The translations under genes and the position numbers were made by a program. Below the pieces are notes generated by a model that did not search any database, was not told where the DNA came from, and was given only the letters and a program-made list of their open reading frames with translations. A stretch of 64,000 nt of DNA, taken from assembly GCA_025526935.1 (NCBI GenBank), contig JAHLKD010000043.1:310001-374000 (forward strand), in the 5' to 3' direction. The DNA comes from Cladochytrium replicatum (lineage: Eukaryota > Chytridiomycota > Chytridiomycetes > Cladochytriales > Cladochytriaceae). Below, piece by piece: positions 3,615-23,882 of the stretch. The stretch's first letter is position 1; every line of letters starts with the position of its first letter.

Positions 3615-4937
3615 ATGATTCTTTTCTTGTTCCGTATCGTTTCCGATGGGATGATTCCCGTGTTTGCACGTTTCTATCTGCTGACCTGGGCGCTTCTGCT
3701 TTCTTCGCCGTGGATATCCTATCCATCATCTGCCGTGTTCTTCTCGGCGATCGAATGTGTCTTCTCGGTCTACTATGTCATGTTTCTGCTGCGGCCGATC
3801 CATCGACACCGATCGGCTGACTATCTGCCGCCCATGTCGTCCACCGAATTCACCCTCTTCCTTGACGAAATGGATCAGATGACTCCGACGGAATTGGAAA
3901 CGTATATGGATGAGTGGACTATGGGTACGTTTCCCCATCTGCAGTCCCAGTTCTGGCCGCAGTGGACCAGCATCATTCTGTTCCATCAACCCCCCGAATC
4001 TCTGTCCGACGCCCAACGATCGCAAATGAAAGCGTTTATTGCGCTTCTGGAAAGAAAGATGCCGGATGGAACATGGCGTGGAGATATCGGCGTTACGAAA
4101 AGTATGTTTCTGACGGTCGATCCCTTGACTATTCGCTATCGTCCGCTGGTCTACTATGCCGCCATTTTCGTGATCAAAGAAGCCATGACGGTATTTTTGC
4201 GTTCGCGTGGCTTCCAACGTGTCCGATGCTCACCGTTCCATTATTACATTCGGCGAGGCGGCAAACAGCGCCCCATTGTGTTTTTCCATGGTCTGGGTGT
4301 TGGCATCGTCAGCTATGTCACCGTTCTGTTGGAAATAGCCAAGGCCTGTCCTCAACGCACCATTCTTTTCTGGGAGATTCCGACCATCTCCATGCACTTT
4401 CCATTCCAATCCGATCAACTCCTTGAATCCGTATTTTTGCACCATTTCCTCCGCACGTTACGCCACGAGCAACTGGATGATCTTGTTCTGGTGGGTCATA
4501 GCGTAGGCACTGCCTTCATCCGCTGGCTCGACAACCAATCCCTGCGCATCCATCATCGCATCTTCCTCGACCCCATCTGCTTCCAACTCTGGCATCCCTA
4601 TACCATCTCCCACGTCCTCTACCGGCCTCCCCAATCCTATCCCCAGCGTCTCATGCACTACTACGCCTTCACCGAATACGGAATCCATCTCTACCTGCGC
4701 CGCTACTTTTGCTGGTTCAGAAACACCTACTTTTCCAAAGAGATTCCCAAAGCGACGGCATTTCTGTCGGAAATGGATGATGTCGTGGATACGACGGCGC
4801 TGAAACGCTATTTGGCCCGGTTTGGACAAGTGCAGACCAGAGTGATGACCGGGATGCATCATGCCGAGTGTTTGATCCGAAAAGAAGCGAGGAAAGAGAT
4901 TGTCCGTTGTATTGCGGATATGGCAAATTGGCAATAA
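3615..4937 (+). CDS. Alpha/beta-hydrolase fold protein, membrane-anchored, intronless
   Basis: A single 440-residue frame with its own ATG. The N-terminus is hydrophobic (roughly residues 1-60, two possible membrane spans ending VYYVMFLLRP). The hydrolase core starts at about residue 215: IVFFHGLGVG is the oxyanion-hole HG motif, LVGHSVGT is the nucleophile elbow with Ser296, and a late SEMDDVVD (Asp388/389) and GMHHAE (His415/416) fit the acid and base of the triad. The fold covers esterases, lipases and many other hydrolases, so the substrate is unknown; the anchor suggests a lipid-like substrate at a membrane (inference). AATAAA at 5032-5037 is a plausible polyadenylation signal. It has no intron, unlike most neighbours. 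Confidence 0.85.
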   Translation: MILFLFRIVSDGMIPVFARFYLLTWALLLSSPWISYPSSAVFFSAIECVFSVYYVMFLLRPIHRHRSADYLPPMSSTEFTLFLDEMDQMTPTELETYMDEWTMGTFPHLQSQFWPQWTSIILFHQPPESLSDAQRSQMKAFIALLERKMPDGTWRGDIGVTKSMFLTVDPLTIRYRPLVYYAAIFVIKEAMTVFLRSRGFQRVRCSPFHYYIRRGGKQRPIVFFHGLGVGIVSYVTVLLEIAKACPQRTILFWEIPTISMHFPFQSDQLLESVFLHHFLRTLRHEQLDDLVLVGHSVGTAFIRWLDNQSLRIHHRIFLDPICFQLWHPYTISHVLYRPPQSYPQRLMHYYAFTEYGIHLYLRRYFCWFRNTYFSKEIPKATAFLSEMDDVVDTTALKRYLARFGQVQTRVMTGMHHAECLIRKEARKEIVRCIADMANWQ

Positions 4938-18852: not shown

Positions 18853-19504
18853 TTCACACAAATTTCACACCACAAGTTCAAGAAAGTCGCGCGACGGTCG
18901 AGAAAGGAAAAAATTGTTGACTTGCTCACCTTCACGATCGAGGATGCAGACAAAATCAATCAACATGGGAAGGAGGCTCACTTGAATTTTCCGATCAACT
19001 GTCGTCAAGGTAATGGGCTGGTATTGAGCAATATCACCAAAGTTCCCTTTTGTTTCCAGACAGGTAAGAGAAGTCCCGAGTTCCAAGAAGTTGGTGACAA
19101 TCATGAACGAAATATAGCTTTGGGAAGTTGAACTACGAGAATAGCAACAGGCTTAAATAACTCGGCAGGTATGTAGTTCAGTCTGGGAGCTGAGTTATTT
19201 GGGGAGGAGCAAATTGCGCTAACAAAATAATGTTACTAGTTGAAGTGTAATCCAAATGGCGTCGTACTGTGGGAGGAGGAGGGGAATCAACAACATATTC
19301 ACTTTGATATACTGAAGTGAAGTAAGTATGGTATTGAGAAAGGGGATGGGGATCAGAAGCTAAATCATTCGTATCTTGGGACAAAGAATTGGTGGGAACC
19401 TAAAACCAGAATCTCGGTCTTCACTGACGTCTCTGGTTATACCTGATTTAAGAGTATAATTTTTGAACATATTTCTAAATACAAGCATACTATTTCAGTT
19501 CATA
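18853..19504. other. POM152 upstream region, no supported gene
   Basis: This should contain the POM152 promoter and 5' UTR. Open frames overlapping 18865-19130 lack any splice acceptor into POM152 and show no domain. Confidence 0.5.
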
Positions 19505-19830
19505 TTGAATAGCTCTATCAGTTCAGTTGGCTATGGCGTAGCGCTCTAAGCTGGAGATTGCAGGTTTGAAGCACTGGATCACAAGTAGTTGCTTCTGCAT
19601 CTCGGCAATTAGACCGCTGGCAAAAGGCACTGACACATGCATGAGAAGCACGCTCATGCGCATGTGATCAATGAATGGGTCAGGGTGTGGACTGAAGAAA
19701 CTTCCAAAAAGTGACTTTGTGGGAATTGCGTTAAGGTCGGGGTAACCAAGGGTATATGTGGGGTTATTTATTTCAACAATATAATTATTTATTTTGGACA
19801 CACAATGCAACATAATAAATAACATTTAAA
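19505..19830 (+). repeat. Diverged SINE-like repeat, copy 1
   Basis: The left end (about 19520-19580) resembles a worn tRNA head: ggcgtagcgctctaagctgg and a B-box-like aggtttgaagc. The right end is AT-rich, with ttatttattttggacacacaatgc. A second copy with a similar 3' part lies at about 19990-20178; the two share ggtgtgga, gggaatt and the 3' AT-rich tail. No flanking duplications were identified. Confidence 0.35.
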
Positions 19831-19989
19831 CTGTCTTACAAGATGATTTTTTGTAATTTTTGTTTTAAACTTGATAATATGTATTTATTTTTCACTGGTG
19901 CAATCCATATTCAAGTGTAACTATTAACTCATTGAAAGTGAATACATATCACCTGCTCGTGCACAATCCAAAGTACAAGTGTTAGTAAA

Positions 19990-20178
19990 AACACGTACAA
20001 TGGCAGCACATGGGGACCGTGCATGCCGGGAAGTGAGATGGGTGTGGAGCAGGCCAATGCTTATTTGACGGAATTTTATAGAATATAATTGACGGTGAGG
20101 ATCGGTTTTTTTGTTTCTTTTAGCAATATTATTATTATTATTTATTTTGCACATACAATGCATAACAAAAAACAACAC
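19990..20178 (+). repeat. Diverged SINE-like repeat, copy 2 (3' part)
   Basis: It shares the 3' segment of the repeat at 19505-19830: agatgggtgtgga, then ggaatt, then an (att)n stretch and tttattttgcacatacaatgc. The tRNA-like head is not recognisable here. It may be a truncated element. Confidence 0.35.
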
Positions 20179-20219
20179 CTAGGGGGCCTTACATTATTAT
20201 CTTAGACCGGTGATCGGAA

Positions 20220-21430
20220 TTTTTTTTTTTTTTGAATGTTATAACATGTATTGACAATGCTTAATCAGTACATGTCACCCACGTGTACTTCAACCAAGAT
20301 TTGGAATCTTCAGTACTTGGGGAGCCGTGCGAGCCGTAGGAAAGAGGAGCGAAGGCAATGGCGAATCGAAGGAGATGTGGCGCGGTACTTGCACGTGACA
20401 CGATATTGCGAGAGATATATTTCGTAGGAAATTCGAATCCAGTCCCCTATAGGATTCGAACCGCGGAGTTTAGCTTCGAAAAGTCGCATTCGTACGGACT
20501 AAGCCACTATGAGGTCGGAATTTTTTTTTTTTTTTTTTTGAATGTTATAACATGTATTGACAATGCTTAATCAGTACATGTCACCCACGTGTACTTCAAC
20601 CAAGATTTGGAATCTTCAGTACTTGGGGAGCCGTGCGAGCCGTAGGAAAGAGGAGCGAAGGCAATGGCGAATCGAAGGAGATGTGGCGCGGTACTTGCAC
20701 GTGACACGATATTGCGAGAGATATATTTCGTAGGAAATTCGAATCCAGTCCCCTATAGGATTCGAACCGCGGAGTTTAGCTTCGAAAAGTCGCATTCGTA
20801 CGGACTAAGCCACTATGAGGTCGGAATTTTTTTTTTTTTTTTTGAATGTTATAACATGTATTGACAATGCTTAATCAGTACATGTCACCCACGTGTACTT
20901 CAACCAAGATTTGGAATCTTCAGTACTTGGGGAGCCGTGCGAGCCGTAGGAAAGAGGAGCGAAGGCAATGGCGAATCGAAGGAGATGTGGCGCGGTACTT
21001 GCACGTGACACGATATTGCGAGAGATATATTTCGTAGGAAATTCGAATCCAGTCCCCTATAGGATTCGAACCGCGGAGTTTAGCTTCGAAAAGTCGCATT
21101 CGTACGGACTAAGCCACTATGAGGTCGGAATTTTTTTTTTTTTTTTTGAATGTTATAACATGTATTGACAATGCTTAATCAGTACATGTCACCCACGTGT
21201 ACTTCAACCAAGATTTGGAATCTTCAGTACTTGGGGAGCCGTGCGAGCCGTAGGAAAGAGGAGCGAAGGCAATGGCGAATCGAAGGAGATGTGGCGCGGT
21301 ACTTGCACGTGACACGATATTGCGAGAGATATATTTCGTAGGAAATTCGAATCCAGTCCCCTATAGGATTCGAACCGCGGAGTTTAGCTTCGAAAAGTCA
21401 CATTCGTACCGACTGAGCCACTATGAGGTC
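20220..21430 (-). mobile_element. Tandem array of four tRNA-derived SINEs with poly-A tails
   Basis: Read on the minus strand, four near-identical units of about 300 bp (21131-21430, 20827-21126, 20521-20822, 20220-20516) each begin GACCTCATAGTGGCT and end catgttataacattc followed by 14-19 A. Each poly-A is followed by TTCC and then directly by the next unit's head. Each head has a pol III B box GGTTCGAATCC and an A-box-like segment at tRNA spacing, so these are tRNA-derived SINEs. A perfect 9-bp inverted repeat (TTCGAATCC, 11-nt loop, GGATTCGAA; 20432-20460 in the last copy) follows the B box. A 66-codon frame recurring in each unit is a by-product. No SINE-encoded protein exists; movement would need a partner LINE that I do not see here. 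Confidence 0.85.
21366..21420 (-). promoter_or_regulatory. RNA polymerase III internal promoter (A and B boxes) of the first SINE copy
   Basis: The A box TGGCTCAGTCGG (21409-21420, minus strand) matches TRGCNNAGYNGG, and the B box GGTTCGAATCC (21366-21376) matches GGTTCGANNCC, at tRNA spacing. In the other three copies the A box reads TGGCTTAGTCCG, which departs from the consensus near its end. Confidence 0.75.
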
Positions 21431-21436
21431 TTCAGA

Positions 21437-21510
21437 TCCCGCGTGGCGCAATTGGCTAGCGCGTTTGGCTGTTAACCAGGAGGTTGGAAGTTCGAGCCTT
21501 CCCGCGGGAG
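21437..21510 (+). tRNA. tRNA-Asn (anticodon GTT)
   Basis: A 74-nt cloverleaf without intron. The acceptor stem TCCCGCG (21437-21443) pairs with CGCGGGA (21503-21509), with discriminator G at 21510. The anticodon stem TTTGG/CCAGG encloses the loop CTGTTAA with anticodon GTT at 21471-21473, and the T arm GGAAG-TTCGAGC-CTTCC is perfect. The SINE array ends six bases upstream on the opposite strand, so the two pol III units diverge. CCA is not encoded, as usual in eukaryotes. Confidence 0.97.
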
Positions 21511-21697: not shown

Positions 21698-23882
21698 ATG
21701 AAGCGATCCCTACGCTGTGCCATCTTGCTGACCCTCATCGCAATCGCTATTGTCGGAGTGCGTGGTGATGGCCGCCCACCACCTACTGAACAACGAAAAT
21801 TTGATGGCCCATATATTGGCATCGACTTGGGCTCACTATACTCCCGTGCGGCAGTGAAAAGGGGCGGGCGATTGGAAATCATCAAGGATGTCGAGGGCAA
21901 CCTCGTTACTCCATCCTACGTTGCGTACACAGATGAGGGGCCGGTAGTAGGGCATATTGCAAAGGATCTGGCGGACAATTTCCCTTCGAACACTTTCTTC
22001 GATATGAAGCGGTTGATTGGACGTACATTCGCTGAATTGGAGAGCGAATTGGATCGTTTACCTTACTCTGTTGTCGAGAAACACGGGAAACCCATGATCC
22101 AGGCAACACTAGCCAGCAATGATACATTGATTGCGCCTGAAGAGATTTATGCGATGCTATTGAGAGCGATGAAAGAGTCCACGGAAGCGCAACTTAAGGA
22201 TAGTACAATCACCCGTGCAGGTAATTCCCGACGCTATAATTTTTGACTCGCGTTCCCTAATCTCTCTCATAGTGATTGCGGTTCCAGCATATTTTGACAA
22301 TAGGGTTGGGGCTGCTATAGGAGCCGGAAAATTGGCAGGGTTTACCTCCATCCGGGCAGTTTGGGAACCCGTCGCCGCTGTTCAGGCGTACAATCTCGAA
22401 AACAACGGCAATGGGCATATACTGGTCTATAACCTCGGCGCTTCGTACTTGGAGGTTACAGTGCTCGGCGTCGAAAACACGATGCTCGATATCGAGATCA
22501 CAGTCAAGGACGACCTCGGCGGAAAGGATTTTGACGATCGCATCGTAGATCATTTCGCGAATGTCTTCAAAGAAAGGCACGGAAAGGATCTTCGTGAGGA
22601 CGTAAATGCCATGAGAAAACTAAGGATGGAATCAGAACGGGCGAAAATTGCATTATCCACGGACGTTTCCACCCGAGTCAAATTCGATTCGATCGTTGAT
22701 GGAATCGATTTTACAGAAACCCTTACCCGAGAAAAGTTTGAGCAACTCAATGCGGACCTGTTCAAACGGACATTGCGCTCCGTCGAGAAAGCTATTGGCA
22801 AAGCAGGAGTATACAAGAGCGAGATCCGCGATATTGTGCTCGCTGGCGGCTCATCCCATATCCCGAAAGTCGTTCAACTACTGGAGAACTACTTTGACGG
22901 CAAAAAGGCCTTGAATAGCATCAATCCGGAACACGTAGTTGCACTCGGTGCAGCAGAAGTTGGCTACGATGTTGACCATGACGATCCATCACAGTATGCT
23001 TGCTTCTTTCACGTCCCGCTCACGCTGGGAATCGAGACCGCTGGCGGTGTCATGACACCGATTGTCCCAGTCTGGACTGAGCTCCCAATGAAGAAGAAGA
23101 TGATGTTCACCACTGCCGTCGTCAACCAGACTACGGTGACGATCAAGGTCTTTCAGGGAGAGCGTCCACTAACCAAGGATAACAACTTTTTGGGTATGTC
23201 TATGGAATGTTTTTTATTTTGCAATTTCATCTCACAGTACTTTTCAAAAGCGGAGGTTAAGCTAACTGGGCTCCCTCCTTCTCCACGTGGTGTCCCTCAG
23301 ATTGAAGTCACATTCGCAAGCGATAGCATCGGAAGGAATCTTTGGGTGACTGCGCGGGATACAGCAACGGGAAACGCCGAGTCGATTACAATAAAGGAGC
23401 GTTTATCATGGGGCGAACGATACGAGCAGATGCTTCGTGACGCGAACCAACTTCCTGATAAGGATTGGACGCTGGGAAAGACTATCGTGAAGAATCACCA
23501 GGCCGGCGGGTACGACCAGACTTATCTGGATGCGCAAAAGTTTGCGCAAGAGGATCTGGTGATGCGAGAAAAGATCACGATGAAGAATCGATTCGAGGAC
23601 TACGTATACAATGTCAATTCCTGGGTGAACGACGGGAGATTGAGCGGAGTGCAGAGGAGACCGATCTCCAGTGCACTTTCAAAAGCATTGCGATGGCTTG
23701 AGTCGACAGGTCTGCAAACAATCTCGAAGGAGGAGTTTATGCTCAAAAAGGTCGATTTGGAAGAAGTCGTCACCCTCTATGTGTTCGATGATGTTTGTGA
23801 TATTCCGAGAAGTGAGCTCGAGATTTGGCAAGAGCGATCGCCTCTGGAAACGTTGCCAACAATACTAGCCAAGATACTGTGA
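21698..23882 (+). CDS. ER-targeted, divergent Hsp70-family protein
   Basis: Exons 21698-22220, 22273-23193 and 23251-23882 give 691 residues, about BiP length. An N-terminal signal peptide (residues 1-24, ending VGVRGDG) precedes YIGIDLGSLYSRAAV. Conserved Hsp70 blocks follow: TFFDMKRLIGRTF (keeping the catalytic-loop Lys), IAVPAYFDNR, WEPVAAVQAY, DDLGGKDFDDRIVDHF, VLAGGSSHIPKV and INPEHVVALGAA, then a substrate-domain part with KLTGLPPSPRGVPQIEVTF. The phosphate-2 motif normally reading DLGGGTFDVS is NLGASYLEVT, losing the Asp, a Gly and the Thr. No C-terminal KDEL/HDEL is present (it ends LPTILAKIL). It resembles an ER chaperone or a nucleotide-exchange-type Hsp70 relative. ATP hydrolysis may be impaired (inference). 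Confidence 0.85.

Follow-up and report, generated by a model that had tools for sequence, protein, structure and literature searches.

A head-to-tail SINE array beside a tRNA-Asn gene of the chytrid Cladochytrium replicatum, probably the inner part of a stack built by targeted insertion

Pairs of LINEs and SINEs with a common 3' end are known. Targeting of tRNA genes by non-LTR retrotransposons has been described from social amoebae (PMC5911963, PMC5006619, PMC5391098); for TRE5-A of Dictyostelium, an interaction between the ORF1 protein and TFIIIB proteins has been described, as has a requirement for the B box in targeting (PMC5911963). The same review expects pol III targeting among fungal retroelements, LINEs included (PMC5911963). 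In the titles and abstract openings of the part of the open-licence PMC literature that we searched, neither a tRNA-targeted SINE nor a tRNA-targeted fungal non-LTR element is described. Here we report on a SINE array in Cladochytrium replicatum, and on related elements elsewhere in the genome, for which such targeting is the reading that we prefer.

The window, a stretch of 64,000 nucleotides (positions 310,001 to 374,000 of contig JAHLKD010000043.1, assembly GCA_025526935.1), contains a single tandem array detected by TRF, at 20220-21430, with a period of 304, 4.0 copies, 99% matches and 0% indels. It is made up of four head-to-tail copies, all on the minus strand, of a unit of about 300 bp that we call SINE-A, and each unit reads on that strand as a head (GACCTC...), a body, poly(A) and then TTCC (Table 1). 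An earlier note on this DNA had described four near-identical units joined in this way, with a pol III promoter at the head, poly-A at the tail and the last head only 6 bp from a tRNA-Asn gene on the opposite strand, and our analysis bears it out: the tails and the A-box and B-box motifs of a putative promoter are present, and the innermost head ends at 21430, while the tRNA-Asn(GTT) gene, the sole tRNA found by ARAGORN in the window, starts at 21437. A longer stack includes the array as its inner part, and pieces of two LINEs, LINE-B and LINE-C, carry it outwards in the same orientation as far as 19764. From the tRNA gene outwards, identity to the reference copies is 99-100% for SINE-A and then 84, 85 and 79%, with 71% for a relic further out, whose tie to the stack is uncertain because it lies more than 500 bp past the last chained piece.

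Table 1. Features of the stack beside tRNA-Asn, listed from the tRNA gene outwards (positions are those of the window)
Feature	Position	Strand	Source
tRNA-Asn(GTT), target	21437..21510	+	ARAGORN; Rfam RF00005, 60.3 bits
6-bp spacer between tRNA-Asn and innermost SINE head	21431..21436	.	sequence
SINE-A copy 1, innermost, common head variant, 17-base tail	21131..21430	-	sequence
TTCC junction (minus strand) between copies 1 and 2	21127..21130	.	sequence
SINE-A copy 2, private head variant, 17-base tail	20827..21126	-	sequence
TTCC junction (minus strand) between copies 2 and 3	20823..20826	.	sequence
SINE-A copy 3, as copy 2 except for a 19-base tail	20521..20822	-	sequence
TTCC junction (minus strand) between copies 3 and 4	20517..20520	.	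sequence
SINE-A copy 4, outermost, as copy 2 except for a 14-base tail	20220..20516	-	sequence
TTCC (minus strand) beyond outermost tail	20216..20219	.	sequence
LINE-B 3' end, diverged, 84% to reference copy	20106..20193	-	homology map
LINE-C 3' end, diverged, 85%	19941..20028	-	homology map
LINE-C tail piece, 86% over 43 bp	19847..19889	-	homology map
LINE-B piece, diverged, 79%	19764..19845	-	homology map
LINE-C relic, 71%; separated from last chained piece by more than 500 bp	18986..19226	-	homology map

Several other features were seen in passing. An Hsp70-family gene (21698-23882, start codon read from the sequence) begins about 190 bp past tRNA-Asn, and a tRNA-like sequence at 19511-19585 is scored by neither ARAGORN nor Rfam. 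There is also a POM152 nucleoporin domain match, which points to a fungal host, and three TPR pieces, for which Pfam itself gives only TPR repeats, resemble what we take to be the flagellar protein IFT88; such a protein would fit a fungus with a flagellum.

Within the array, copies 2-4 are identical across 299 bp, 14 tail A's counted in, and copy 1 is 99% identical to them. The CGGACTAAG head variant was found in copies 2-4 only among the 100 heads listed of 117, and copy 1 carries the common variant. Because copies 2-4 have both these private variants and an identical junction in common, they are probably local duplicates of one unit; the tandem amplification that the earlier note had offered as a possibility thus probably holds for copies 2-4, and it does not hold for copy 1. 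The note had also seen no obvious target duplication, a statement that may need qualification: TTCC stands at all three junctions and beyond the outer tail, so that copies 2-4 are each flanked by it at either end; it may therefore be a 4-bp target duplication of these copies. We infer at least two insertions in the window, namely that of copy 1 and that of the unit from which copies 2-4 descend. In the simplest history, the first insertion would have taken place 10 bp from tRNA-Asn with duplication of TTCC, the second would have been that of copy 1, 6 bp from tRNA-Asn, and the first unit would then have been multiplied locally into copies 2-4, most likely via unequal recombination.

SINE-A is present as dispersed copies with a poly(A) tail. 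Across 50.5 Mb in 198 contigs, and allowing up to three mismatches, a pattern for its head gave 117 matches and one for its tail 134, with 0 for each backward control. By its A-box and B-box motifs, the head carries a predicted internal pol III-type promoter, with the A box at base 11 in copy 1 (a looser match at 11 in copies 2-4) and the B box at base 56. The head has no Rfam score at E 1. A comparison with 49 tRNA sequences identified no parent tRNA: the head is closest to tRNA-Lys(TTT), with a score of 29, where 200 shuffled heads average 19.5 and reach at most 31. Among the 100 heads listed, head-to-tail SINE-A neighbours occur at seven loci (the window array and loci on six other contigs), and no opposite-strand pair lies less than 700 bp apart. 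A pattern for the junction of a head with poly(T) gave 51 matches, where a few would be expected by chance and the backward controls gave 1 and 1. The non-A letters that separate a tail from the next head are TTCC, TGG or G.

What lies in front of the head was recorded for 38 copies, counted if they start within base 25 and reach base 280, which are a sample of the at least 117 heads and to which the window array contributes four (loci L002, L003, L007 and L036 and the window copy were omitted as overlaps, and the duplicates L018 and L028 were both counted). In 14 of the 38, a divergent tRNA gene lies 4-11 bp from the head, the genes being those for Asn, Pro, Leu, Ala (2), Val, Ser, Met, Lys (2), Gln, Thr, Ile and Arg; in 21, the head is preceded by the poly(A) of another element. 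Three copies remain: one is 30 bp from tRNA-Cys (L030), one faces a tRNA-like sequence at about 3700-3787 that neither ARAGORN nor Rfam scores (L023), and the last, in L026, is taken up below. An Rfam scan of L023 and L026 gave nothing facing the SINE-A heads, and across L015, L021, L023 and L026 it gave one tRNA (L021) and three snoRNA matches below their gathering scores. The way in which loci were picked is to be borne in mind: of the 29 copies from loci picked by SINE-A itself, 8 are at tRNA genes, 19 follow poly(A) and 2 are in other settings, and the corresponding numbers for the 9 copies from loci picked by tRNA are 6, 2 and 1. Target duplications of at least 2 bp accompany 9 of the 38 copies, three of these being the TTCC of the window; shuffling gave 3.0 such copies on average and in none of 2000 rounds as many as 9. 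At the 14 tRNA-adjacent copies the duplications measure 0-2 bp, and 5 of these copies have one of 2 bp, against a mean of 1.5 in shuffles, about 1% of which attain 5.

The same relation was found from the side of the tRNA genes. There are at least 62 matches to tRNA genes, 63 of 2278 first-look candidates having been scored, and the flanks of 50 of the 62 were compared, a non-random sample of the 30 best-scoring genes and 20 others in which repeat DNA means a BLAST match to another locus of the set examined. At 43 of the 50 genes, upstream repeat DNA starts no more than 20 bp away, and at 49, all but the gene of L032, no more than 400 bp away; the downstream counts are 4 and 18 of 50. Since these elements abound among the loci compared, the upstream count should not be read as a neutral density of repeats, but the downstream count was made on the identical loci. 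Matches to 5S genes number 8 and those to U6 genes 3, of which 2 exceed the cut-off. All four close downstream cases belong to two duplicated pairs, L062/L065 and L077/L078. Targeting to pol III genes, as seen at tRNA genes, is thus supported both by the 14 of 38 heads at tRNA genes and by the difference between 43 of 50 upstream and 4 of 50 downstream. This is what the earlier note had suggested as one of its two readings, and the outcome it had named as contrary, single copies unlinked to tRNA genes, is not the one found.

The upstream repeats include SINE-A, LINE-B, LINE-C and an ORF1-only element, element N, and some repeats were assigned to none of these; mixed SINE/LINE stacks are common, being found at many of the mapped tRNA genes. 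In 117 of 122 chained upstream fragments the 5' end points towards the tRNA gene, the reversed ones being three in L021, one in L051 and one in L057. The first mapped element lies 4-11 bp from the tRNA gene in 34 of 58 chains (median 9) and outside this range in 24, including 3 at 44-54 bp, and some of the larger distances arise because the reference pieces are without 5' ends. Overlapping or duplicate loci (L001, L002, L003, L007, L036, L028, L065 and L078) were excluded from the tests of orientation, spacing and ordering. Three pairs of loci, L018/L028, L062/L065 and L077/L078, have matching tRNA genes and upstream elements and are apparent segmental duplicates, each on two contigs except for L077/L078, which are on one contig 18 kb apart. 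A GC-rich GGGTCGGGTCC-type repeat (L021, 4690-4860) is found at the head end of a stack in which no tRNA was detected.

If arrays grew by insertion next to the tRNA gene, the nearer of two elements should be the less diverged, and this held for 40 of the 53 pairs that were informative (binomial p 0.0003), for 27 of the 33 pairs that differ by at least 2%, and for 22 of 27 comparisons of the nearest with the farthest element (31 chains). Pairs from the same chain depend on one another, and each identity refers to a single reference copy. These figures are from the final version of the test, in which elements were merged, the common variant served as SINE reference, the tRNA-Cys of L029 was omitted and 14 of 67 pairs, differing by less than 0.5%, were set aside as uninformative. 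A first version (38 of 59 adjacent pairs; nearest versus farthest 17 of 27, p 0.25) was dropped because it counted the pieces of one LINE separately and took the private variant, copy 2, as SINE reference; a second, with merged elements, gave 41 of 57 pairs and 21 of 27 nearest-farthest comparisons, or 11 of 16 in chains of three or more. The L029 chain was counted twice in both earlier versions. All three agree in direction, and the choice of method followed sight of the first result. Thirteen of the 53 pairs are reversed, as in L019, where the LINE-C piece on the tRNA side is 90% identical to its reference and the next SINE-A 96%. Because the nearer element is usually the less diverged, the arrays appear mostly to grow at the tRNA end, as a trend and not as a rule.

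LINE-B and LINE-C both have a separate ORF1 and an ORF2 that encodes, by family matches, an APE endonuclease and a reverse transcriptase. Counted from stop to stop, the second frame spans 1109 (L009) and 1163 codons (L017, L024), and the two ORF2 sequences are 41% identical. Both match RVT_1 and two Exo_endo_phos families above the Pfam cut-offs, and neither matches a Pfam RNase H family at E 0.01. The PDB chains closest to the LINE-C reverse transcriptase are of L1 type (L1 ORF2), the topmost being labelled just RNA-directed DNA polymerase. Three ORF1-type frames matched no Pfam family, and one, compared with the PDB, had no convincing relative there (best E 0.53). Element N, about 1.27 kb long in L004 (231-1504), has a frame of 348 aa in that locus that is related to the ORF1 of LINE-B (32% over 141 residues, E 1e-14); the tail of LINE-B follows it in L004, L008 and L044, and it lies at a tRNA gene in all six of its loci (these three and L031, L069 and L073). 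It thus resembles an ORF1-only offshoot of a LINE. Long CT repeats start LINE-B and LINE-C, beside the tRNA gene in L055, L066, L067, L070 and L076 and behind SINE-A in L004, L049 and L058.

About 113 bp of the 3' end of SINE-A align to the 3' end of LINE-C with a score of 57, as against 26 for the best of 300 shuffles and 23 for LINE-B. Because of this common 3' end, LINE-C is the likely helper of SINE-A. In its predicted fold, SINE-A forms a hairpin close to its tail; from the sequences a similar stem, with one compensated pair, can be proposed for LINE-C, although the predicted LINE-C fold is without such a stem. None of the loci examined has a LINE that carries the SINE-A tail itself; the tail-only pieces in L010, L011, L018 and L028 are SINE-A fragments.

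We therefore read the array as retroposed elements stacked at a single tRNA gene by targeted insertion, and assign this reading a probability of roughly 0.85. One could envision instead that the first insertion alone was targeted and that later ones entered the poly(A) of earlier elements, so that arrays grow outwards. Zorro3 integrates into poly(A) in this way and has poly(A) on both sides (PMC7175516), and as many as 21 of the 38 SINE-A heads follow poly(A). The oldest element should then be found beside the tRNA gene, however, and it is the nearer element that is less diverged in 40 of 53 pairs; moreover, the 14 tRNA-adjacent heads have no poly(A) before them, and TTCC, TGG and G at the junctions would be unexpected inside poly(A), although bases added at 5' junctions could account for these. 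We consider this alternative unlikely as an account of the arrays.

The window array could also be a purely local tandem duplication of one SINE, with no repeated insertion, an idea that suits the 299 bp over which copies 2-4 are identical, the TTCC that they share and a head variant that is private to them among the 100 heads listed. Yet copy 1 differs from copies 2-4 and carries the common variant, and mixed SINE/LINE stacks stand at many mapped tRNA genes, so that duplication fails for the stack as a whole and seems improbable as its sole origin. That the number of units is an assembly error might be thought of because copies 2-4 are alike save for tail length, but the tails do differ (14, 19, 17 and 17 from the outside in) and head-to-tail neighbours were found on six other contigs among the 100 heads listed; we regard such an error as very unlikely. 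Insertion might lastly be random, with survival only beside tRNA genes as harmful insertions vanish, and the region upstream of tRNA genes has indeed been called safe for insertion (PMC5911963). Selection of this kind leaves unexplained the fixed orientation (117 of 122 fragments), the spacing of 4-11 bp (34 of 58 chains) and the absence of directly downstream repeats outside duplicated loci, and we give it very little credence.

Under targeted insertion, the ribonucleoprotein of a LINE would recognise a tRNA gene by its pol III initiation complex (TFIIIB/TFIIIC) and nick the DNA just upstream of the transcription start, where the RNA would be copied in place by target-primed reverse transcription; SINE-A would be copied and placed by the machinery of LINE-C. 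New insertions would mostly adjoin the tRNA gene and shift older ones outwards, giving head-to-tail arrays that run in one direction, and some arrays may also have been extended through insertion into an earlier poly(A) tail. Against this reading stand the 13 reversed pairs, the heads on poly(A), which insertion into poly(A) would give as well, the target duplications of 0-2 bp at the tRNA-adjacent copies, the five reversed fragments, the 24 first elements outside 4-11 bp and the locus L026, in which a SINE-A head faces the 5' end of LINE-B and no tRNA was found. The gap between the two heads (3745-3766) is 20 bp in the map and shrinks to about 5 bp when the CT repeat is assigned to the LINE. 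Because the SINE-A head has a pol III-type promoter by its motifs, and because LINE-B stands head to head with it here in the fashion of a LINE at a tRNA gene, SINE-A might itself act as a portable landing site. A wider reading, in which nearly every tRNA gene is a landing site with a layered record, youngest nearest, and SINE-A hijacks a tRNA-targeting LINE while being a portable target itself, is tentative, and we think it rather less probable than its negation. If it were true, SINE-A would be both passenger and target. LINEs with targeting, a SINE that apparently borrows this targeting and an ORF1-only element would together make up a natural experiment on which part of the machinery finds pol III genes, and the ordered stacks may give a relative insertion record for each tRNA gene. 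They also raise the question of how a tRNA gene can remain active when a foreign element lies 4-11 bp in front of it.

The elements that LINE-B and LINE-C most resemble in layout are TRE5-A and its relatives in D. discoideum, likewise two-ORF non-LTR elements with an APE endonuclease and a reverse transcriptase, which also lie upstream of tRNA genes with the 5' end facing the 5' end of the tRNA gene and use many tRNA genes (PMC5911963, PMC5391098, PMC5006619); the likeness to TRE rests on layout and orientation, the LINE-C reverse transcriptase having been compared with PDB chains only. TRE5 elements lie at about 47 bp upstream, in a range of about 44-54 bp (PMC5911963, PMC5391098), whereas 34 of our 58 first elements lie only 4-11 bp away, and the host of TRE5 is a social amoeba, whereas the present elements are in a fungus. 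TRE elements are found on either side of 61% of D. discoideum tRNA genes (PMC5006619), a different measure from the upstream repeats within 400 bp at 49 of 50 genes here. In position, the nearest described element is NLTR-A of D. purpureum, a non-LTR element 2-6 bp upstream of tRNA genes (PMC5006619), a range that overlaps the 4-11 bp of the SINE-A heads, the first elements here having a median of 9; NLTR-A has an RNase H domain (PMC5006619), and none was found in LINE-B or LINE-C by the Pfam comparison. The word SINE is absent from PMC5006619.

Among fungi, four of the five Ty elements of Saccharomyces cerevisiae are retroelements that lie upstream of pol III genes, but Ty are LTR elements (PMC5911963) and those described here are non-LTR elements with poly(A) tails. 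Zorro3 of Candida albicans is a fungal element of L1 type flanked by poly(A), as elements are here, but it targets poly(A) and has no known chromosomal preference (PMC7175516), whereas the targets here are tRNA genes. The Dada elements of fish are mobile elements that target tRNA genes too, but they are DNA transposons that insert into RNA genes (PMC8869645), in contrast to a LINE and a SINE that lie upstream of them. A common 3' end, as in SINE-A and LINE-C, is found in known LINE/SINE pairs (PMC3747384); in the present pair, the LINE lies at tRNA genes and the SINE is placed in the same way.
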